Source: Oligoflexales bacterium (GTDB taxonomy: Bacteria > Bdellovibrionota_B > Oligoflexia > Oligoflexales > RGVZ01). Taken from it: a DNA stretch of 64,000 nucleotides. The notes beneath the pieces are model-generated. The model had not been told where the DNA came from. It ran no database searches and saw only the letters and a program-made list of their open reading frames with translations. The stretch is taken from the NCBI GenBank assembly GCA_947479535.1, contig CANJZQ010000008.1, positions 1-64,000 on the forward strand. The letters are read 5' to 3'. Positions 2,626-27,376 of this stretch are shown here, in pieces. Each line of letters starts with the position of its first letter. The stretch's first letter is position 1. Position numbers and translations under genes: made by a program.

Positions 2626-3486
2626 ATGTGTCGATTCCTTGCCTACAAAGGCCAGCCGGTTGTTATGGACAAGCTGATTTATCAGCCGTCGAATTCCCTG
2701 GTGAAGCAAAGCATCAATGCCCATGAAATCGAAGAGCCCCTCAATGGCGATGGTTTTGGGATTGGGTGGTACACGCACCACATCGATCCAAGGCCTGCAG
2801 TTTTTGTTTCAGTAAATCCAGCGTGGAGCAATCGAAACCTGCGAAACATCGCCCCGAAGATCGAATCTCACTGTATGTTCGCTCATGTTCGCGCAGCGAG
2901 TTTTGGCGAGACGTCTGAATCTAATTGCCATCCCTTTCACTTTCGCGAATTCATGTTCATGCACAATGGCAGTATCGAGGGATTTGACTCGATCAAGCGC
3001 GAGGTTCGCCACCGCCTGTCAGATGATACCTATGCCTGGGTTCATGGGCAGACGGATTCCGAACATTTTTTTGCCCTTTGCGTCGACCGCCTTCGAAAAA
3101 TACCGATGGGCAAGGCGACGGGAGGAATGATGGCAGACATCGTTCAGGACGTGATTCGGGAGATCAAACAAATCAAGCTATCCAGGAACGTCACTGATGG
3201 GACGTGGCTTAATATGGCGCTAACAAACGGGCATTGGCTGGTGGCGGCCCGCTATGTTTCAGATCCCAAGGAAGAGCCTCTTACACTCTACTATTCGTCG
3301 GGATCCCGCTACGCCGTGGAAAACGGCGAGTGCCGGATGGAGCACGCTGATTCCCATAATGCTTCGGTTCTGGTCGTATCCGAGAAATTGACCAGGGTTG
3401 AAAAGGATTGGACCCTGGTCAAACCAAATCACTTCGTCATCGCAAGTCCCGGTGGAGACGTGGAACTCCGTAAAATTGAGGACTGA
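2626..3486 (+). CDS. Class II glutamine amidotransferase (YafJ/EgtC-like)
   Basis: The protein starts MCRFLAYKG, so processing would expose Cys2 as the N-terminal nucleophile typical of class II (Ntn) glutamine amidotransferases. NGDGFGIGWY, AHVRAAS and MHNGSIEGF further on are the glutamine-binding motifs of the stand-alone YafJ/EgtC group. At 286 residues it is the usual size for that group, with no synthetase domain attached, so the acceptor of the ammonia is unknown. It lies 23 bases after the patatin-like gene and 32 bases before the SRAP gene on the same strand, and may be cotranscribed. Confidence 0.85.
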   Translation: MCRFLAYKGQPVVMDKLIYQPSNSLVKQSINAHEIEEPLNGDGFGIGWYTHHIDPRPAVFVSVNPAWSNRNLRNIAPKIESHCMFAHVRAASFGETSESNCHPFHFREFMFMHNGSIEGFDSIKREVRHRLSDDTYAWVHGQTDSEHFFALCVDRLRKIPMGKATGGMMADIVQDVIREIKQIKLSRNVTDGTWLNMALTNGHWLVAARYVSDPKEEPLTLYYSSGSRYAVENGECRMEHADSHNASVLVVSEKLTRVEKDWTLVKPNHFVIASPGGDVELRKIED

Positions 3487-18568: not shown

Positions 18569-18825
18569 GATTCAGACCTCCTGTCTTGTGACGAGCAACT
18601 CCATGTCGCTCCAATGTCAGGAGTCGTCAGCCTTGTGAGGATGCTTAGCGAGTCGGCGGGGTTAAACAAACAACCGACTGTAATCATTGGTGTTTTATTT
18701 TATGGTCGGCATTTTATGCCCATCAAATCAGGCAAAAAGTGCCGGGGTGGAACCCGTTGGAGGGGATTTCCCGGATCAATGTGGTACAAATTTCGAGTCC
18801 GTTTTTCTCGAACTGGAGTCGCAAC

Positions 18826-19935
18826 GTGAAGAACAATCCGGCACCCAAGCGCCTTCGTGATTTTGGAATCCAGATTGGATCTTTCAAACCGGGTCCATTC
18901 AACGCCATCACAGATGTTAGTGGAGTTCGCATTGGGCATGTGACCCTTGACCACGGCGAGGGCAGGCTGGTTATTGGTGAGGGACCAGTGCGCACCGGAG
19001 TGACGGCAATCATTCCAGCAGATGGGGACTTGTGGAACCAGAAGCTTGCCGCCGGTTCATTCATCCTTAATGGCACGGGCGAGGCTGCAGGGTTGATGTG
19101 GGTTCAAGAGTCCGGGATCTTGGAGAACCCGATCCTGTTCACCAACACTCTCTCCGTGTCGGCTGCCCATATCGGTCTGCTCGAGTGGATGTTGGAACGT
19201 TATCCTGCCCTCGGCATCACGGACGACACGCCGACCCCGATGGTCCTTGAATGCGACGATTCGACGCTAAATGATTCCCGCGGGATGCATGTCAAACCCG
19301 CCCATGTGAAGGAAGCCCTTGCGATTGCGGCATCGGGTCCTGTGGCAGAGGGTGCGGTTGGTGCCGGGACGGGGATGATGACCTATGACTTCAAGGGCGG
19401 TATCGGAACATCGTCACGTTGTGTGCGTGATTATAAAATCGGCGTGATTGTGAATTCCAATCACGGCCGGCGGCACAACCTGCGCATCAAAGGGCACATG
19501 GTGGGCGAGATCATCAGCGATCTGATGCCAACCCGTGGGCAAGAGGGATCGATTACAGTTGTGATCGCCACAGATGCACCGTGTGATGCGCGGCAGTTGT
19601 CGCGGATGGCCAAGAGGGCGATGTTGGGTTTGGCCCGCACAGGCGGCATTGCCTATCACGGCAGTGGCGACATCGCCGTGGCGTTTTCCACGGCCAACCG
19701 GATTCCGCACTATCCGGAACAAGCCGAATACACGGCGCGTGCGATTTCTGACTTTTGGATGAACGATCTATTTGAGGCGGCGGCCGATGCGACTGAAGAG
19801 GCCGTTTTGAACGCGATGCTTGCTGCCAAAACCGTCACCGGACGCGATGGCAACACGGCCCATGCCTTACCCCACGACCGCTTGGCGGCGATCCTGGGCA
19901 AAACCCGTCATCCTGAGCAAAACCCGTCATCCTGA
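18826..19935 (+). CDS. P1/S58-family aminopeptidase (DmpA-like)
   Basis: The fold is the Ntn-type DmpA family: TDVSGVRIGHVTL near the N-terminus, GAVGAGTGMM in the middle, and GGIGTSSR at about residues 191-198. Ser196 there would be the autoproteolytic Ser that becomes the nucleophile of the beta subunit. Members are aminopeptidases that act on D- or beta-linked N-terminal residues. The GTG at 18826 has GGAG at proper spacing; the frame is open from 18739. The last residues (from about 363) read into the 19-bp tandem repeat array, which supplies the sequence PSS and the stop codon. Confidence 0.88.
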   Translation: MKNNPAPKRLRDFGIQIGSFKPGPFNAITDVSGVRIGHVTLDHGEGRLVIGEGPVRTGVTAIIPADGDLWNQKLAAGSFILNGTGEAAGLMWVQESGILENPILFTNTLSVSAAHIGLLEWMLERYPALGITDDTPTPMVLECDDSTLNDSRGMHVKPAHVKEALAIAASGPVAEGAVGAGTGMMTYDFKGGIGTSSRCVRDYKIGVIVNSNHGRRHNLRIKGHMVGEIISDLMPTRGQEGSITVVIATDAPCDARQLSRMAKRAMLGLARTGGIAYHGSGDIAVAFSTANRIPHYPEQAEYTARAISDFWMNDLFEAAADATEEAVLNAMLAAKTVTGRDGNTAHALPHDRLAAILGKTRHPEQNPSS

Positions 19936-20097
19936 GCGAAACCCGTCATCCTGAGCGAAACCCGTCATCCTGAGCGAAACCCGTCATCCTGAGCGAAACC
20001 CGTCATCCTGAGCGGGAGCGAAGGATCCTTTCTTCCCCGCGTCATCCTGACGTAGCCAGTCATCCTGAGCGGGAGCGAAGGATCCTTTCTTTTCATC
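19901..20097. repeat. Tandem 19-bp repeat array plus dispersed repeat units
   Basis: Six consecutive copies of AAACCCGTCATCCTGAGCG (the first with a final A) occupy 19901-20014. They are followed by two longer copies of the same core, each continuing into GGGAGCGAAGGATCCTTTCTT. The core GTCATCCTGAGCG-(N)-GCGAAGGATC is an imperfect palindrome and recurs at 21851-21898 and 25918-26063. This is an REP-like family rather than a CRISPR: the spacers are absent or constant. Confidence 0.9.
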
Positions 20098-20182
20098 CCT
20101 GCCTCCGACCATTTTTTTGCAACTTCAGTTAATATAGAAAACGAACCGAAATTTTTCCCATGAACCACCCCAGGGGGATTCT

Positions 20183-21565
20183 GTGAAGGCTTTTGAGCGT
20201 TTTTTGCCAATCGCAATTGGTTGCATGGCCTCTAGTCTTGGATTTAGCTTTAGCTTTGGCTTTGGCTTTGGCGCAAGTGCCGCTGCGACGCCTGCTGCGT
20301 TTGACTTGCGCGATGTCGCTGGTAAAAATCTGGTGTCTGCCGTGAAAAGTCAAAGCGGCGGCACTTGTTGGACCCATGCCACGGCCGCTGCGCTTGAGAG
20401 CAACCTCATGGTAAGCGGGGAGTGGGAAAATCAGCAGGAGCCTGGTGAAGCCAACTTGGCTGAATACCATTTGGACTGGTGGAATGGCTTCAACTTGCAT
20501 TTCAACGCCGATGCTGCGCCTGAAAAAAATGGCCTCACGGTTCATGAAGGTGGTGATTTTCTGGTCGCAACGGCTTACCTGGCGCGCGGCGGTGCGGTGC
20601 GCGATATTGATGGCCAGAGCTTTAGCAGTGCTCCCGCAGATTCTGCGGCGGGGTATCATCATTACTATCCGCGCCACGCCGAATGGCTGGCCTCTGCAGA
20701 TCGCGCCGATGCGCACAAGCGCATCAAAGAGGCTCTTGTGAGCCACGGGGTTGTTGGCACAGCCTTGTCATGGGCGAGTAAATTTTTCAATCAGACCAAC
20801 GCCACGTTTTACCAGCCGGTGGCAAATACGGACGAGGCAAATCACGCCGTCGCCATCGCGGGTTGGGATGACACCAAGAAAACCCAGGCGGCAAAGCCGG
20901 GCGCATGGCTCATCAAAAACAGCTGGGGCAAAGAGTGGGGCAAGCAAGGCTACTTTTGGATCTCGTATGAAGACAAGGTTGCGGGGCGACACCCTGACAT
21001 GGGTGCTGTTGCATTCCGCGATGTCGAACGCCTCGCTTACGACCGCATTTATTTTCATGATTACCACGGCTGGCGCGACACAAAAAAAGGTGTCCTTCAT
21101 GCCGTAAATTCCTTCACCGCCAAAGGACCTTCCCGGCGCAATCCAATGGGGCTTTCCGCGCAGGAGTATTTGAAGGCGGTGAGTTTCTACACGACCGAGC
21201 ATGACAGCGACTACATGGTTCGCATTTATAAGGTTTTCGATGGAGCGGTGCTTGGCAATGAAGTGGCCTGGGTTGGCGGCAAAGAGGCCAACAAGGGATT
21301 TCATACCGTGGACCTGCCGTGGGAAGTAGCGCTTGAGCCTGGCGAGCAATTTCACGTCAGTGTTGAGCTTGGCAAAGGTGGACACGCTTTTGACCGGACT
21401 TCAGATGTGCCCGTCTTGCTGTGTGGTCCGAAAGTCAAGACGGTCGTGAAGTCCAAGGCATCGGCCGGAGAAAGCCGGTACCTGAAGGCTGGCAAGTGGG
21501 TCGATTTAACCAGGGATGATGCAACGGCCAACTTTGCAATCAAGGCGCTGACGGTGCTACGTTAG
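20183..21565 (+). CDS. Papain-like cysteine protease (C1A), exported
   Basis: A GTG with AGGGGG before it starts a signal peptide whose hydrophobic core is a run of Phe-Ser and Phe-Gly pairs, encoded by a TTTAGC/TTTGGC hexanucleotide repeat. The peptidase domain carries Cys62 (GGTCWTHA), His221 (NHAVAIAGWDD) and Asn246 (IKNSWG), the full C1A triad. After about residue 300 comes a beta-rich C-terminal domain (roughly 145 residues), a layout seen in bacterial C1A proteases with a lectin-like domain. It probably degrades protein in the periplasm or outside the cell. Confidence 0.93.
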   Translation: MKAFERFLPIAIGCMASSLGFSFSFGFGFGASAAATPAAFDLRDVAGKNLVSAVKSQSGGTCWTHATAAALESNLMVSGEWENQQEPGEANLAEYHLDWWNGFNLHFNADAAPEKNGLTVHEGGDFLVATAYLARGGAVRDIDGQSFSSAPADSAAGYHHYYPRHAEWLASADRADAHKRIKEALVSHGVVGTALSWASKFFNQTNATFYQPVANTDEANHAVAIAGWDDTKKTQAAKPGAWLIKNSWGKEWGKQGYFWISYEDKVAGRHPDMGAVAFRDVERLAYDRIYFHDYHGWRDTKKGVLHAVNSFTAKGPSRRNPMGLSAQEYLKAVSFYTTEHDSDYMVRIYKVFDGAVLGNEVAWVGGKEANKGFHTVDLPWEVALEPGEQFHVSVELGKGGHAFDRTSDVPVLLCGPKVKTVVKSKASAGESRYLKAGKWVDLTRDDATANFAIKALTVLR

Positions 21566-21593
21566 GCGAAAGATTCATTGATGGAGCAAAATC

Positions 21594-21833
21594 ATGGACT
21601 CGCCAAAAATTGCGAAAAATGGGCCGTATATCGTGGAAGAAACTGCCGGCAAAAAAGTTTGGTGCAGCTGTGGTGTTTCAAAAAAACAGCCTTACTGCGA
21701 CGGCTCCCATGCCGGTACTGGCTTCTATCCAGAATTTGTTCATCTCGATGAGGCAAAAAAAGTCGCATGGTGTGGATGCAAGCAAAGTGCAAATAAACCA
21801 TATTGTGATGGTTCACATAACAAGCTGAAATGA
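21594..21833 (+). CDS. Dual-CDGSH iron-sulfur protein
   Basis: The 79-residue protein has two CDGSH motifs, each with the full 3Cys-1His ligand set: Cys24, Cys26, Cys35, His39 and Cys60, Cys62, Cys71, His75. Each should bind one labile [2Fe-2S] cluster, as in mitoNEET-type proteins. The bacterial double-motif form is usually cytoplasmic and linked to redox or iron-sulfur trafficking. It has no membrane anchor. It sits 28 bases after the papain-like gene, but no functional link is evident. Confidence 0.92.
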   Translation: MDSPKIAKNGPYIVEETAGKKVWCSCGVSKKQPYCDGSHAGTGFYPEFVHLDEAKKVAWCGCKQSANKPYCDGSHNKLK

Positions 21834-21850
21834 ATGAAGGTCCTGAAGCA

Positions 21851-21898
21851 GCGAAGAAATGATCCTTCGCTGCGCTCAGGATGACATCTGCGCTCATC
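21851..21898. repeat. Dispersed GTCATCCTGAGCG-type repeat
   Basis: A copy in reverse orientation of the repeat family at 19901-20097 (GATCCTTCGCTGCGCTCAGG, then ATGAC), followed by a partial second unit. It lies 18 bases after the CDGSH gene. The rest of the 308-base gap up to 22141 is AT-richer; I see no other gene or signal there except a short low-quality frame at 21920-22105. Confidence 0.85.
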
Positions 21899-22141
21899 TA
21901 ACGAAGCCAGAAAATTTTTATGGCCTTGGCACTGACAGAGTTTCCAGCAGTCATCTCAAAGCTAAACGTCACAATCCGCTCCATGAAAAATCGCGAAATT
22001 TCATCGACGTTCCTCTTAAAAAACCAACAATTTTGTAGACTTAAGTTTCATTCGACGCCGTGCGGATTGTCAATCACCAGGCCTTATCTAAGTTGGTCCC
22101 AATAACGTCCGATACTTAATGCAATCTCGGGGGGATGTTGC

Positions 22142-23260
22142 ATGACGAGTTCTAGACGATTCATGTTTTCAATCGGTCTTGTGGCCCTGGTTCTCGGGAC
22201 ATCGGCCTGCGGCAAATGGTTTAACTGCCTGACCGGCAAGGATTGCGATTCAATCAATGCCATCGAAAATGCAGCCACAAAAGATCTCTTCCTGAGCGTC
22301 GTTAGAAATAGCTTGAGTTCATTGGGAGGTGTCTTGGTCGAACTGGGTCTTTCGGGTACCCAGAAAGATACCGTCATCACTAACGTCCAGACCAAGGCAC
22401 AGACCCAGACATCCCAACTTGGTTTGGCAACCGAAGCGACTTACAGCGGCACGATGCTGGAAAATCTGTCTGCCATGTTTCAGGATTTGATGAATTTCAC
22501 CATCACAACGGTTACCGAGGTAGCCCCGCAAGTCGACAAAACTTCGATCATGAACGTCTGCGCCAATTTCATGAACGACTTGATTGCCAACGCGGGCCTC
22601 GTTGGAATCCTTGAATCGTTACCTGTGGAAGAACAAACAACCCTGGCAAAGGATCCCGAGACGGGGAAACTCGATTGGGAGGTCTTCCGCGCACCGCTGG
22701 AACGAGTAACCGTTGCAGCATTCTCTGATACCGTCTCACCAGAAACGGTCGGTGCTGCCGTCGGACGTTTCAAGCATCGTCCCGGTGAGTCGAAACGACC
22801 GGCACAAGAAATTATTGGATATCGTCCCAACAAGGACGAAATCGAAAGCGGAAAAGATCGAATTCAGGGCCTTTGCTCCGCCAACCGCGGAGATGTGGGG
22901 GTCGGTAACGGCGAGGTCTCTGCCGCAGACAACGACCATGGAATCCCGGTTCCCGGCAAGGCTTGTCGGGGCGTCAGAATCGACAAGAAAGCTTCTTTTT
23001 GCCTGTTTGCGCCAGAAACTTCAGCGAAGTTTTGTAGCAAAACCATTTACGGATTGGATGCAACAAAAGCCAACGCGACAGCAATCACCATTTGGATAGA
23101 GGGAGTAGAGCAATCGTTCAACGGATTCGATGATGGGAAACTCTATGACTGCACGGTGATTGAGGATCGAGCGAAATTGGCTCAACTGCTTTCAGCTGCA
23201 ATTGAAGCAAAAAAACCTGAATGCAAATCTGCACTGACGGCTCGAGGCGCGGGGCATTAA
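22142..23260 (+). CDS. Lipoprotein of unknown function
   Basis: A GGGGG site precedes the ATG at 22142. The N-terminus is a lipoprotein signal (GTSAC, Cys23). Mature residues about 35-170 look helical, with repeated amphipathic segments such as NAIENAATKDLFLSVVRN and NVQTKAQTQTSQLGLA. The C-terminal half has several Cys and a possible pair LCSANRG and GKACRGVR. A predicted 372 residues. I do not recognise a family. It is preceded by 308 bases with a repeat copy and is not obviously part of an operon. Confidence 0.75.
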   Translation: MTSSRRFMFSIGLVALVLGTSACGKWFNCLTGKDCDSINAIENAATKDLFLSVVRNSLSSLGGVLVELGLSGTQKDTVITNVQTKAQTQTSQLGLATEATYSGTMLENLSAMFQDLMNFTITTVTEVAPQVDKTSIMNVCANFMNDLIANAGLVGILESLPVEEQTTLAKDPETGKLDWEVFRAPLERVTVAAFSDTVSPETVGAAVGRFKHRPGESKRPAQEIIGYRPNKDEIESGKDRIQGLCSANRGDVGVGNGEVSAADNDHGIPVPGKACRGVRIDKKASFCLFAPETSAKFCSKTIYGLDATKANATAITIWIEGVEQSFNGFDDGKLYDCTVIEDRAKLAQLLSAAIEAKKPECKSALTARGAGH

Positions 23261-23367
23261 GCCCGCGCCCTGATTCAGATTGTTGCTTATTTTCAGACGC
23301 TTCTAAGGGATCAAGTGCTTCGCGGTACACCGTCGTCAACGCACCAGTCCCAACGATCAAGTGGATC

Positions 23368-23787
23368 TCACCCCACCACATCGTCCAGATCAATCTCGGG
23401 GAAGACTTGCTTGATGCGCACCAAGGTCAACAGTTCGGGGTTGGCAGTCTTTCCGGATTCGAGGCGCTGGTAGCTGTAGAGGTTCTTCATGCCCAGCCGT
23501 TTCGCCGCCTCTTTCTGTGTCATCCCGCGCGCCAACCGCATTGTGCGCAGGTAGTGGGCGAAGGCAATACGCGGGTCTACCGCCACGGCCACGCCACCCG
23601 CCGATCCGCGCGGCATGGGCAGGGGCACCCTGCTGTCCGCCGGCTCATCAAGGTACGCATTTAGCGCCTCGGCCATGTTCCCGTCCAACTTCTCCCGGCT
23701 GCGCGCTTGGGTGACACACCCCTCCAGCTCAATACACCGCGCTAGCCACAGCTGGCCCTCCTTCCTGACTTTGAAGTGGTATTTCAC
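23368..23787 (-). CDS. hicB: HicB-type antitoxin with C-terminal HTH
   Basis: The first 70 residues form the HicB partial RNase-H-like fold (MKYHFKVRKEGQLWLARCIELEGCVTQAR). The C-terminal region from about residue 75 is an HTH (MTQKEAAKRLGMKNLYSYQRLESG) that would bind its own operator. HicB neutralises HicA and represses the operon. The start overlaps the hicA stop by four bases (23784-23787), the hicA-then-hicB order on the minus strand being typical of the family. Composition differs slightly from neighbours, consistent with a mobile toxin-antitoxin pair, but I have not measured it. Confidence 0.9.
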   Translation of the reverse strand: MKYHFKVRKEGQLWLARCIELEGCVTQARSREKLDGNMAEALNAYLDEPADSRVPLPMPRGSAGGVAVAVDPRIAFAHYLRTMRLARGMTQKEAAKRLGMKNLYSYQRLESGKTANPELLTLVRIKQVFPEIDLDDVVG

Positions 23788-24017
23788 TCTTTTGACTCCC
23801 GTGTGCTAACTGACCGGAGGTGCAGTACCCCTTCGTTTTTCGAGTTTCGCAAGGTTTTCAGCAATTCCAGTTCCAGCCCTCGACCAAGTTCCTTGTGCAT
23901 CGGAATGACCGCTCGGCGGATTCCCTTGCCGATCACGACATGGCTTCCGCGCTGGCGCAGAAACTCCCATCCTGCATCGATAAACTTGTCCAGCATCTGC
24001 TTTCCACTGACTGGCAT
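23784..24017 (-). CDS. hicA: HicA-type mRNA interferase toxin
   Basis: The protein (77 residues) contains the double-stranded-RNA-binding-like HicA fold: SGKQMLDKFIDAGWEFLRQRGSH, with the catalytic His26 in the GSH motif. HicA toxins cleave mRNA and are blocked by HicB. The start at 24017 (ATG) begins MPVSGKQML, matching the family's N-terminus; an open frame to 24059 adds 14 unconserved residues. It overlaps the downstream hicB by four bases. Promoter not assigned. Confidence 0.88.
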   Translation of the reverse strand: MPVSGKQMLDKFIDAGWEFLRQRGSHVVIGKGIRRAVIPMHKELGRGLELELLKTLRNSKNEGVLHLRSVSTRESKE

Positions 24018-24194
24018 CGACACCCACCCACTGATACCACTTAAAGTTGGTATTATCAAGGGAGGCTCTTCGACCTAACTCCCTGATTCCGGTGGATGTG
24101 CTTATCCCGCGTAGATTGAGATTTGGAAGTGATATCACATGTCATCCGCCAAACTCCCGGTACCTGTTACAACACTCCGCACCCTCCCTCCACA

Positions 24195-24217
24195 ACATCG
24201 TCCAGATCAATCTCGGG
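24195..24217 (-). pseudogene. Remnant of a second hicB 3' end
   Basis: This 23-base stretch is identical to 23378-23400 within hicB, and on the minus strand reads PEIDLDD plus V, the same C-terminal residues as the intact antitoxin. Translation then continues as a different tail (VEGGCGVL, then stop) in the minus direction. No further antitoxin similarity is seen upstream on that strand. The rest of the 24018-24383 gap contains no gene I can support. Confidence 0.6.
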
Positions 24218-24383
24218 ATCTGATTTTGGTACCCCCGCCGCGGCTGCGATTTATCGATGCATCCACAGCTGCCTCGACCACTCACCGTGCCTTCGAAGTC
24301 AACGATAGAGACACCTATCAAATCGGGCGCCTTTTTGACGGCAATGCTACACTTGCTGAAAAAAATCCCCGGGGGGTGAGGCT

Positions 24384-25139
24384 GTGAGGCGATACAAAAT
24401 AACCGATGACGTTCCTTTTCGGGGGCAATTGTCGTGGTTTAACCTCTCGTTTACTGCAGGCGCGATCAATGCCGGGGGGTTTCTTTCCTGCCAGCGATTT
24501 GTGTCTCATGTCACAGGCTTTGTTACGATTTCCGGATTAAATTTTGGTCAACGTGCGTGGCAAGAGGCATTGAGTGCCTTATCGATTCCCGCCTTTTTTC
24601 TGTTAGGCGCCATCATCAGCGCGGCTTTCACCGAACAAGACACCACCGATCAACGCATTTCAAAAAACTTTGCGTGGACCATGGGGATCGTTGCGGTGGC
24701 CTTGTTGGTCATCGTTATTTTTGGCAATACGGGACACTTTGGTCCATTTGGTGTGACTGAGAACATTCAAGCTGACTATATTCAAATTGCGCTGCTGTGC
24801 ATGATTTGTGGAGTTCAAAATGCCGCAGTTTCATCCTTGACGGGATCTTCTGTTCGTCCAACACACTTGACAGGTACGACAACCGATATTGGTATTGGAT
24901 TTGTGCGAGCGCTTCGTAGCAGATCCAACCTTGATATTCATCGGAAAGAAGTGCGGACAAATTCGCGCCGGATTAACCTTCTTTTAGGCTTTGTTGCGGG
25001 TGTCATGGTGGGCTCAGTATTCTTCTTTAGGTTTAATTACTGGGGTTTTGCCCTGCCACTTCTGACGAGCTTGGCCTCAATGATTGAGAGTATTTTAGAT
25101 GTGCGGTCAGTGCGAAGTTCGTTGCCTGGCGGAAAATAA
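24384..25139 (+). CDS. DUF1275 (YoaK-like) membrane protein
   Basis: A hydrophobic protein of 251 residues with about six membrane segments. The first helix carries the family block FTAGAINAGGFLSCQRFVSHVTGFVT, and ICGVQNAAVSSLTGSSVRPTHLTGTTTD resembles the second conserved half of the DUF1275 fold. The two halves look like an internal duplication. The role of this inner-membrane family is not known to me. The GTG at 24384 has GTGAGG upstream. It ends 18 bases before the RDD gene and may share a transcript with it. Confidence 0.85.
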   Translation: MRRYKITDDVPFRGQLSWFNLSFTAGAINAGGFLSCQRFVSHVTGFVTISGLNFGQRAWQEALSALSIPAFFLLGAIISAAFTEQDTTDQRISKNFAWTMGIVAVALLVIVIFGNTGHFGPFGVTENIQADYIQIALLCMICGVQNAAVSSLTGSSVRPTHLTGTTTDIGIGFVRALRSRSNLDIHRKEVRTNSRRINLLLGFVAGVMVGSVFFFRFNYWGFALPLLTSLASMIESILDVRSVRSSLPGGK

Positions 25140-25157
25140 ATTTAGATGGGAGTTTGG

Positions 25158-25814
25158 ATGACTCAACAGTGGTATTTGCGGCGTAACGGAAAAGAATCCG
25201 GACCTGGCACGGAAGAACAACTTCGCGCCGCATTTAAGAAGCGTGCGATTTCATTGGATACGGAACTTCGCCGGGAAGATAAAACTGAATGGATCAAACT
25301 AAGAGATGCAGGAATCCTTTCTCCCGAGGATTCAAACCCATTCAGCTCCGATCCACTGCCCGCTTCGGAAGCCGCCGCTGGAGCCAAAAAACCTCTGATT
25401 TACCGGGCCATGTTCGATGAGAAACCAGTCTACGGCGAAAAGTTGCGACGCCATTTTCCAAATTTCGCCGAACGTTTCATCGCCATTGCAATTGACGGTG
25501 CTATCTTGTTTTTTGCCAGTCTGATCGGCGTTTTTTTGCCGGTCATCGGACTTCTGGTCCAATTGGTTATTGGGTTTTTCTATTTCGTCTATTTTCAACA
25601 TCAATGGGGCTACACAATCGGTCGCAAGGTCATGCGAATGCATTTGGAGACCCTGGACGGAAAGAAGCCTGCTCGTAGTGTATTTCTGATCCGATACTTT
25701 GCGGGAATGCTTTCAGGTATCCTTTTTGGGACAGGTTTTTTCATGGCACTGTTTGACCCAAAAATGAGAACGCTCCATGACCACATTGCCGGCACTGTCG
25801 TCGTTAGAGACTGA
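25158..25814 (+). CDS. GYF_2-RDD membrane protein
   Basis: Residues 1-50 (MTQQWYLRRNGKESGPGTEEQLRAAF) form a GYF_2-type domain. The rest is an RDD domain with conserved Arg and Asp in FAERFIAIAIDGAILF and a C-terminal DPKMRTLHDHIAGTVVV, and two to three membrane helices. RDD proteins are small inner-membrane proteins, some linked to ion or peptide transport; this one has no assignable substrate. The ATG at 25158 has GGGAG at 8 bases and is preferred over the ATG at 25146. About 240 bases of repeats follow it. Confidence 0.85.
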   Translation: MTQQWYLRRNGKESGPGTEEQLRAAFKKRAISLDTELRREDKTEWIKLRDAGILSPEDSNPFSSDPLPASEAAAGAKKPLIYRAMFDEKPVYGEKLRRHFPNFAERFIAIAIDGAILFFASLIGVFLPVIGLLVQLVIGFFYFVYFQHQWGYTIGRKVMRMHLETLDGKKPARSVFLIRYFAGMLSGILFGTGFFMALFDPKMRTLHDHIAGTVVVRD

Positions 25815-25917
25815 CCGCCATATCGTGTCCGGCATTGAATTCATAAACTCTGAGTCATTGTCCTGCGTCTTCAAGGTCGACATCAGGTGTTACCTTCGTC
25901 ATGTGGGTCGGCACTGA

Positions 25918-26063
25918 AGCGGGGAAGAAAGGATCCTTCCCCTTCGCTTCGCTCAGGGTCAGGATGACGGGTTGAAGAAAGGATCCTTCGCTGCGCTCAG
26001 GATGACGTACGCGCTCAGGATGACGTGCGCGCTCAGGATGACGTGCGCGCTCAGGATGACGGA
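25918..26063. repeat. Dispersed repeat patch with 18-bp tandem units
   Basis: Two full units in the reverse orientation (GGATCCTT...GCTCAGG followed by ATGACG) are followed by a short tandem of about four units GCGCTCAGGATGACGTGC-like, 18 bases each. It belongs to the family at 19901-20097 and 21851-21898. The array reaches the stop codon of the aminotransferase gene at 26051. Confidence 0.85.
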
Positions 26064-27376
26064 GTAAGGCACCGGGCAAGGCATCGGTCCAGGATCTCAA
26101 GGGCGATGGCGATTTCGTGAGGCCCACAAATCAAAGGTGGTGCAAAACGAATGGTCGAGGCGCCGCAGCCCAGGAGCAAAAGACCCTCGCGAAACGCCAT
26201 TTGTTCCAGTTCTGCCATGGCGTTGGGGATCGATTGTTTGGTGACCGGGTCTGCCAATTCCATACCAATCATGAATCCAGGTCCACGCACATCCATGATG
26301 CAGGGGTGACGTTCGGCGAGTTTCCTTAGACCGCTGGTCAGGAGCTCGCCGTTCTGGCGAATCTCTGGCAGGATTTTTTCGACGACTTCCAACGTTGCGA
26401 TCGCCGCCGCACAGCTGACGTTGTTGCCACCGAAAGTGCTGCCGTGACTGCCGCGGGTCCAGTCCATGACTTCCTCGCGGGCGATGATGGCTCCAATTGG
26501 AAGTCCCGATCCCAACCCCTTCGCCGTGAGCAGGATATCCGGAGCAACGTCGAAGAAGTCTGCTGCATACATCTCGCCAGTCCGCCCCACGCCACTTTGA
26601 ACCTCGTCAAATACCAGCATGATGCCGTGACGGTCACAAAGTCCGCGCAGGCCCTTTAGAAAGGATTTTGGCGGGACAACGTATCCGCCCTCGCCCTGAA
26701 TTGGTTCGACAAAAATGGCGGCCAATTCGTCGGGACTGACCACGCGATTGAATAGCTGCTTTTCAATTTTACGGATTGCTTCAAGTCCGCATTCTTCTGG
26801 TGTCATCCCTTCCGGACGGCGCAGGACATCGGGATATTCAGCGTGAACAACGCCGGGCAGGAAGGGGCCAAAGTGCTCACGTTGGCGGATCTTGGAGGCT
26901 GTCAGCGACAAAGCACCCATCGTCCGGCCATGAAATCCGCCGTAAAAAGACATCAGGCCTTTGCGCTTTGTGTGAAAGCGCGCCAGCTTGATCGCGCCTT
27001 CGATCGCCTCGGTTCCCGAGTTGGTCAAAAAAACTCGTTTTTTACCCATACCCGGGACGTAACCAGATAACTTTGTGCAGAGGCGTGAAAAAGATTCCGT
27101 ATAGAAATCAGTGCCGCAAATGTGCCAGACCTTTTCCAGCGATTCCCTTACGGCTCCCATGACGTGTGGATGGGCATAACCGGTGGAGCTGACGGCGATC
27201 CCTGCCATCATGTCCAGGAATCGATTGCCATCGACATCGTCGATGAAACAACCTTGGCCGCGGTCAGCAACCAGCGGGTATTCCTTGATGTAGGAGGGGG
27301 ACGTGCAGGATTCGTCCTGTGCAATGATGGCTTTGCCGCGTGGTCCAGGCAGTGCTGTCTTGATTAAGGGGCGCAT
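26051..27376 (-). CDS. Class III aminotransferase (ornithine/4-aminobutyrate type)
   Basis: A PLP enzyme with the class III blocks LTNSGTEAIEGAIKLAR, FVEPIQGEGG, VFDEVQSGVGRTG and LTAKGLGSGLPIGA; the last contains the PLP Lys. The best family guess is an omega-aminotransferase acting on ornithine or 4-aminobutyrate. With the adjacent P5C-dehydrogenase-like enzyme and the arginase elsewhere, ornithine to glutamate is plausible but not proven. Four bases separate it from the upstream dehydrogenase stop, so it is the last gene of the operon. Its final residues TPSS and stop are provided by the dispersed repeat. Confidence 0.85.
   Translation of the reverse strand: MRPLIKTALPGPRGKAIIAQDESCTSPSYIKEYPLVADRGQGCFIDDVDGNRFLDMMAGIAVSSTGYAHPHVMGAVRESLEKVWHICGTDFYTESFSRLCTKLSGYVPGMGKKRVFLTNSGTEAIEGAIKLARFHTKRKGLMSFYGGFHGRTMGALSLTASKIRQREHFGPFLPGVVHAEYPDVLRRPEGMTPEECGLEAIRKIEKQLFNRVVSPDELAAIFVEPIQGEGGYVVPPKSFLKGLRGLCDRHGIMLVFDEVQSGVGRTGEMYAADFFDVAPDILLTAKGLGSGLPIGAIIAREEVMDWTRGSHGSTFGGNNVSCAAAIATLEVVEKILPEIRQNGELLTSGLRKLAERHPCIMDVRGPGFMIGMELADPVTKQSIPNAMAELEQMAFREGLLLLGCGASTIRFAPPLICGPHEIAIALEILDRCLARCLTPSS

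Follow-up and report, generated by a model that had tools for sequence, protein, structure and literature searches.

How a peptidase gene and an aminotransferase gene that lie on opposite strands come to finish with the same residues, ...PSS, and with a stop codon read from the same repeat is the question raised by this locus. In our study, the window is the whole stretch of 64,000 nucleotides that was analysed; it belongs to contig C8 (CANJZQ010000008.1) of a 2.4-Mb draft, 90.65% complete (G000), the closest named relatives of which are MAGs that carry the label Pseudobacteriovorax antillogorgiicola or Oligoflexales bacterium. Three other genomes of the same genus (G001, G002 and G003) were used for comparison. 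The first-pass annotation had described three patches with a common core, the first of them a 19-bp tandem array, as the source of both PSS tails and both stops, and our analysis bears this out. The core occurs in the window as 11 exact copies and one with a single mismatch (shuffle mean 0.04), confined to positions 19907-20084 (with a tail to about 20091), 21861-21885 and 25932-26060. The first patch is a tandem array with a period of 19 bp and 6.5 copies (19891-20014); the third has a period of 18 bp and 3.8 copies (25993-26061), and it preserves the frame because 18 is a multiple of three. Both genes end on CCGTCATCCTGA, read as CCG TCA TCC TGA, and in both of them the Pfam match finishes ahead of the repeat-derived residues (Table 1).

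Table 1. Genes and repeat units at the two gene ends of the window and between them.
Feature	Coordinates	Strand	Remarks
Peptidase family S58 (DmpA-type) gene	18739..19935	+	PF03576 over residues 55-373 of 398; start codon uncertain
Six heads, 19-bp spacing, the first with one mismatch	19907..20014	+	Contains the TGA (19933-19935) that ends the peptidase
Pair of complete hairpins with heads at 20002 and 20059, separated by a shorter head-like stretch	20002..20091	+	CCTTTCTT after each hairpin
One complete hairpin, downstream of a CDGSH gene	21861..21885	-	G003 alignment stops at 21840
Complete hairpin (head 25994-26006), then nested longer hairpin GTCATCCTGACCCTGAGCGAAGCGAAGGGGAAGGATC	25932..26006	-	
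Three head units of 18 bp	26012..26060	-	TGA 26051-26053 is the aminotransferase stop
Class-III aminotransferase gene	26051..27376	-	PF00202 over residues 33-433 of 441; final PSS repeat-derived

The comparison with relatives shows what these ends look like when the repeat is absent. In G003, whose proteins match those of the window at 93% (peptidase) and 98% (aminotransferase), neither gene end carries the repeat, and both ends differ from ours: the peptidase finishes with ...ILG* (TAG) and the aminotransferase with ...LARCI* (TGA). Everything after ...ILG in the peptidase of the window is repeat-derived, and it runs 11 residues (KTRHPEQNPSS) beyond the end of the G003 relative because the array is entered in another frame and the stop is the TGA of its second unit. 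The same peptidase ends as ...ILASGV* in G002, and in G001 a complete hairpin stands directly after ...ILGE, where G000 has its array, and supplies the stop as a TAG in the hairpin loop. Relatives with identical ends and no repeat, which would have spoken for native ends, were sought and not found. Between the two genes, the G003 alignment breaks at 19899/20100, 21840 and 26069, adjoining the three patches, and G003 has different genes in that interval, including a molybdopterin-binding enzyme and a histidine-kinase-like ATPase. Elsewhere the DNA beyond the repeat is often alignable with the relative, and we therefore make no claim that the changes in gene content are due to the repeats. A direct repeat of 34 nt (91%) also lies in this interval, on both sides of an HTH gene (23367-23400 and 24184-24217); G001 aligns to both copies without the intervening DNA, a pattern that suggests recombination-mediated loss or gain of the latter.

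The repeat is not restricted to the window. The 13-mer that forms the hairpin head, GTCATCCTGAGCG, has 123 exact copies in G000, all of which group into 64 clusters, and its reversed control has none. Within the genus, G001 has 88 exact copies and G002 and G003 have three each; elsewhere in the order, G028 has 94, G024 has 37 and G008 has 15. The 13-mer is present in 18 of 56 genomes, G000 included, and a phylum-wide search matched 18 of 58 genomes, nearly the same set. High or moderate copy numbers recur in distant families, near relatives of which have few or none. Two of the G000 sites (L094 and L097) also carry copies in G003; by their shared position, they show that part of the repeat family predates the expansion in G000 and G001. 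The exact 25-nt hairpin is additionally found in 62 stretches (L195-L256) of a viral collection (IMG/VR contigs), and the hairpin is spread well beyond this genus.

The element follows a common plan: a CGTC tag, the arm ATCCT, GA, a short inner stem, a loop, the inner stem again, GA, the arm AGGAT and, usually, CCTTTCTT. A cluster is built of heads truncated on their 3' side and arrayed head to tail. Among the clusters listed, a complete hairpin, GTCATCCTGAGCG-nnn-GCGAAGGATCCTTTCTT, typically comes after one or more heads, each made up of GTCATCCTGA and a spacer particular to the locus, and a sister hairpin, GTCATTCTGAGGCC-GNA-GGCCGAAGAATC, often follows in inverted orientation. Heads within arrays are mostly spaced by 18 (35 cases), 19 (22) or 20 (43) bases, and a second group of spacings, 36-41, corresponds to complete tandem units. 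The outer arms are perfectly complementary in 131 of 173 candidate single hairpins (ATCCT/AGGAT in 96, ATTCT/AGAAT in 34, ATCCC/GGGAT in 1), and the mixed pair ATCCT/AGAAT occurs once among single hairpins; this tally counts related copies, not de-duplicated, and not independent events. The stem consists of 5 bp, a GA/GA mismatch and then mostly 2 or 4 bp. Inner stems also covary (GC/GC, GGCC/GGCC, AC/GT, AGCC/GGCT) in a pattern search that demanded the GA/GA mismatch; when it was not demanded, GA/GA was found beside 145 ATCCT arms and 37 ATTCT arms, with few others, in a tally that also takes in array heads matched to the arm of a neighbour. Among the 131 perfect single hairpins, the base before GTC is C in 126 and T in 4, the stem starts with a complementary AT in all of them (the A and the final T were already demanded by the search pattern), the loop has 3 bases in 81, 4 in 35 and 5 in 6, and the tail is CCT in 114. 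Generic folding energies are modest, with z from -0.67 to -1.03 for the main family; across five forms, z spans -0.67 to -3.07. One hairpin tip among the forms of the element is GCGAAGC, an unusually stable hairpin. It is among the single-stranded DNA hairpins with solved structures, according to the available text of PMC5430850.

The orientation of the clusters relative to genes is polarized. With genes called by a simple method, and with 17 of the 128 cluster sides lacking a gene or a clear end type, the gene end that faces a head side is a 3' end in 59 cases and a 5' end in 7; for tail sides, the corresponding figures are 22 and 23. A single head side and a single tail side are found in 22 of the 25 co-directional gaps, and the head points toward the 3' end in 20 of these and not in 2 (p 1.2e-4). 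In the 18 convergent gaps of this kind, the head is the side closer to its gene in 14 (p 0.03). Heads overlap the stop codon or lie at most 15 bp from it in 33 of 59 cases, tails in 2 of 22. Of the 51 clusters flanked by a called gene on either side, 6 have head-head outer ends, 5 of them in convergent gaps and 1 in a co-directional gap. Two clusters, L091 and L123, start just past a terminator-like G+C-rich inverted repeat with a T-run.

The repeat also supplies stop codons. The annotation had proposed a genome scan for repeat-derived PSS C-termini, and that scan shows the TGA of a head to be the stop of 13 genes in the 64 clusters: the two of the window and those at L067, L073, L075, L077 (right), L078, L079, L080, L081, L084, L100 and L116. 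For the genes at L090 and L097, the stop falls, as read by eye, within a degenerate unit, which brings the total to about 15 repeat-ended genes. The stops are the TGA of a head, a TAG in some loops or a TAA in a spacer, and the tails are SS or PSS. Of the 13 genes with a head TGA, eleven run into the outermost head in the frame of immediate stop; the peptidase and the L079 gene arrive in a different frame and terminate at a later unit. Irrespective of gene calls, open runs of at least 80 codons reach the outermost head (70 heads) in the stop frame 13 times and in the other two frames 4 times each. The heads of the viral collection have no such excess, with open runs of at least 80 codons in frames A, B and C for 20, 24 and 16 of 71 heads.

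In order to compare these ends with those of relatives, pieces of 30 further near-head genes were sought in G001, G002 and G003, with 20, 15 and 15 matches, respectively. For 11 of the 15 repeat-ended genes (the peptidase, the aminotransferase, L075, L078, L079, L081, L084, L090, L097, L100 and L116), there is a relative that is free of the repeat at its own end, and all 11 of these relatives end differently. At L097 the G003 copy does have the repeat, past its own stop, and at L116 G001 likewise has repeats past a different stop. The remaining four are uninformative: L067 is matched in G001 only, with a shared end; L073 and L080 have no match; and the G002 counterpart of L077 (right) ends on a similar hairpin, TCCTGAGCGCAGCGAAGGATC. 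The L078 gene ends with YLQN* in G003 and G002 and with YLSS* in G000 and G001; in G001, YLSS* is retained on GTCATCCTGA and no repeat follows within the 110 bases shown, so that a rewritten stop may outlast the repeat that brought it. The L075 gene is informative in another way. In G003 it ends ...CTTCTTCGTCGTAA; in G000 it is terminated by a head's TGA, whose last base is 2922, and the counterpart of the former TAA is still found at 3223, past the repeats and 301 bp downstream. That stretch doubles as the coding end of a convergent neighbour, which is perhaps why the old stop survived. The proposal that repeat insertion replaced the original ends is accordingly supported in substance, and for L075 it is better worded as an end overridden in or beside its last codons.

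Taken together, we consider it probable (about 0.8) that this is a non-autonomous, CGTC-REP-like hairpin element that is dispersed at gene 3' ends, overrides stop codons and spreads as folded DNA. Its dispersal, its head-to-3'-end polarity, its presence or absence among relatives, the takeover of stops and the turnover of arrays are direct observations. The element would spread as a folded single DNA strand, mobilised by a factor that acts in trans or has since been lost, and the arrays of truncated heads would grow by hairpin-provoked slippage. Insertions at gene ends would survive because the domain is already complete there, the last codons being dispensable, and because the head terminates translation at once in one of the three frames. 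As for the factor, a RAYT-type transposase had been suggested elsewhere in the genome, and PF01797 (Y1/RAYT) gave no match in G000, G001, G024 and G028, the four genomes with most copies (drafts, 90-93% complete), nor in G002 and G003. A RAYT acting in cis is likewise unsupported: G008, with its 15 copies, has three PF01797 proteins, none of them with a head in its 1.5-kb flanks. The other candidate that we rejected is a reverse transcriptase; PF00078 had no match in G000, G001, G003 and G024, one in G002 and two partial ones in G028. These negative searches count against the proposed element, as do the modest folding energies of the main family, the lack of a stop-frame excess in the viral collection, the G003 copies at L094 and L097, and the simplicity of the gene calls.

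The polarity and the nearness to stops would also be expected if the repeats were 3'-end regulators under selection, which stabilise mRNA, terminate transcription or damp translation, and which sit immediately behind stop codons, so that overlap with stops is a by-product of placement; E. coli REPs at most 15 nt from a stop are reported to stall ribosomes (an earlier study cited in the available text of PMC12306157). We regard this as a minor possibility, since regulators under selection would not readily be so patchy within one genus (123, 88, 3 and 3 exact copies) or turn over so rapidly: G000 and G001 have unequal numbers of heads at 18 of the 19 sites compared (12 with more and 6 with fewer in G000), in a mechanical comparison in which the downstream DNA is not alignable at some sites. 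Terminator-like sites in the region are also at chance level (7 against 8.4 in shuffles), none of those listed being inside a patch; Rfam gives no known RNA family for positions 19000-27000 up to E = 1, and promoter sites in the region are not in excess over shuffles. A different reading of the same polarity is that of an all-frame stop cassette without Y1/RAYT, settling at 3' ends in fixed orientation, whose 19- or 20-bp head arrays offer a TGA in every frame within three units and repeatedly rewrite C-termini; to this we give a slim chance.

It is important to consider, too, whether PSS and SS are the genes' own native ends, from or beside which the repeat originated. The G001 copy of L078, with its SS* and no repeat in the bases that follow, fits such an origin, as does the G002 aminotransferase, which ends ...SPSF* on a similar 12-mer, CCGTCATTTTGA. 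Nevertheless, the different ends of all 11 informative relatives, across unrelated genes, contradict native ends for most genes and make them very improbable. In G002, moreover, the 12-mer class CCGTCATYYTGA is overrepresented (15 occurrences, control 0), so CCGTCATTTTGA may be a decayed older head or relic, and the first insertion at the aminotransferase may therefore be old; a stop that outlasted its repeat could also account for SPSF*. Finally, several clusters of G000 lie at contig ends, as an assembly artefact of a fragmented draft might, and overlap by chance could be proposed as well. Both are hardly credible given the reversed control of 0 and the fact that G001, a separate draft, has the same repeat-derived ends for the aminotransferase and at L067, L075 and L081.

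Among known repeats, the closest are the CGTC-tagged REPs. According to the available text of Di Nocera, De Gregorio and Rocco 2013 (PMC3733652), these carry CGTC (or TGTC, CCTC) at one end and have stems of 8-9 bp, loops of 4-5 bases and CCA tails, mostly as head-to-head dimers, with clusters rare. Our element has in common with them the tag, a stem starting with AT, a dispersed and patchy distribution near gene 3' ends and, as far as that text goes, the lack of a known dedicated transposase (here, no PF01797 in the four high-copy drafts). It differs in its GA/GA-interrupted stem, its mostly 3-base loops, its mostly CCT tail and the frequency of head-to-tail arrays of truncated heads; since stem, loop, tail and rarity of clusters all depart from the description, we describe it as CGTC-REP-like without assigning it to that class. 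The termini of GTAG REPs, in the same text, often supply the TAG stop of adjoining ORFs; these REPs and REPtrons, which go together with RAYT transposases, share with our element a hairpin tagged at one end, and they differ in that here the tag is CGTC, the stop is TGA and no PF01797 protein was found in the high-copy drafts. Rickettsia RPE-4 and RPE-6 are classed there as CGTC repeats. Rickettsia intragenic repeats are, like ours, repeat DNA translated as protein, at variable positions along reading frames, whereas the present element terminates the protein. A literature search found neither the 13-mer nor six related cores, and the 12-mer only in unrelated subjects; within the literature examined, some of it available in part, CGTC repeats were nowhere described as a source of TGA stops, which is not proof of absence.

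Our results give a before-and-after view of a non-coding repeat capturing stop codons within one genus, with repeat-free relatives as controls. Two questions become testable: by what means repeats of the CGTC type move when no transposase is known for them, which the available text of PMC3733652 leaves open, and why such repeats keep a fixed polarity beside stop codons. The results also carry a warning for the annotation of such genomes, in which a protein's SS or PSS tail can derive from the repeat. With regard to the stem, the GA/GA mismatch recalls the mid-stem mismatch that is required for cleavage of E. coli REPs, as described in the available text of PMC8266576. A nested longer hairpin, found at positions 25932-25970 of the window and elsewhere in G000 (cores CCCTGAGC...GCGAAGGG), reads ATCCT-GA-CCCT-GA-GC-GNA-GC-GA-AGGG-GA-AGGAT, and looks as if a stem-plus-GA module had been inserted inside the element.
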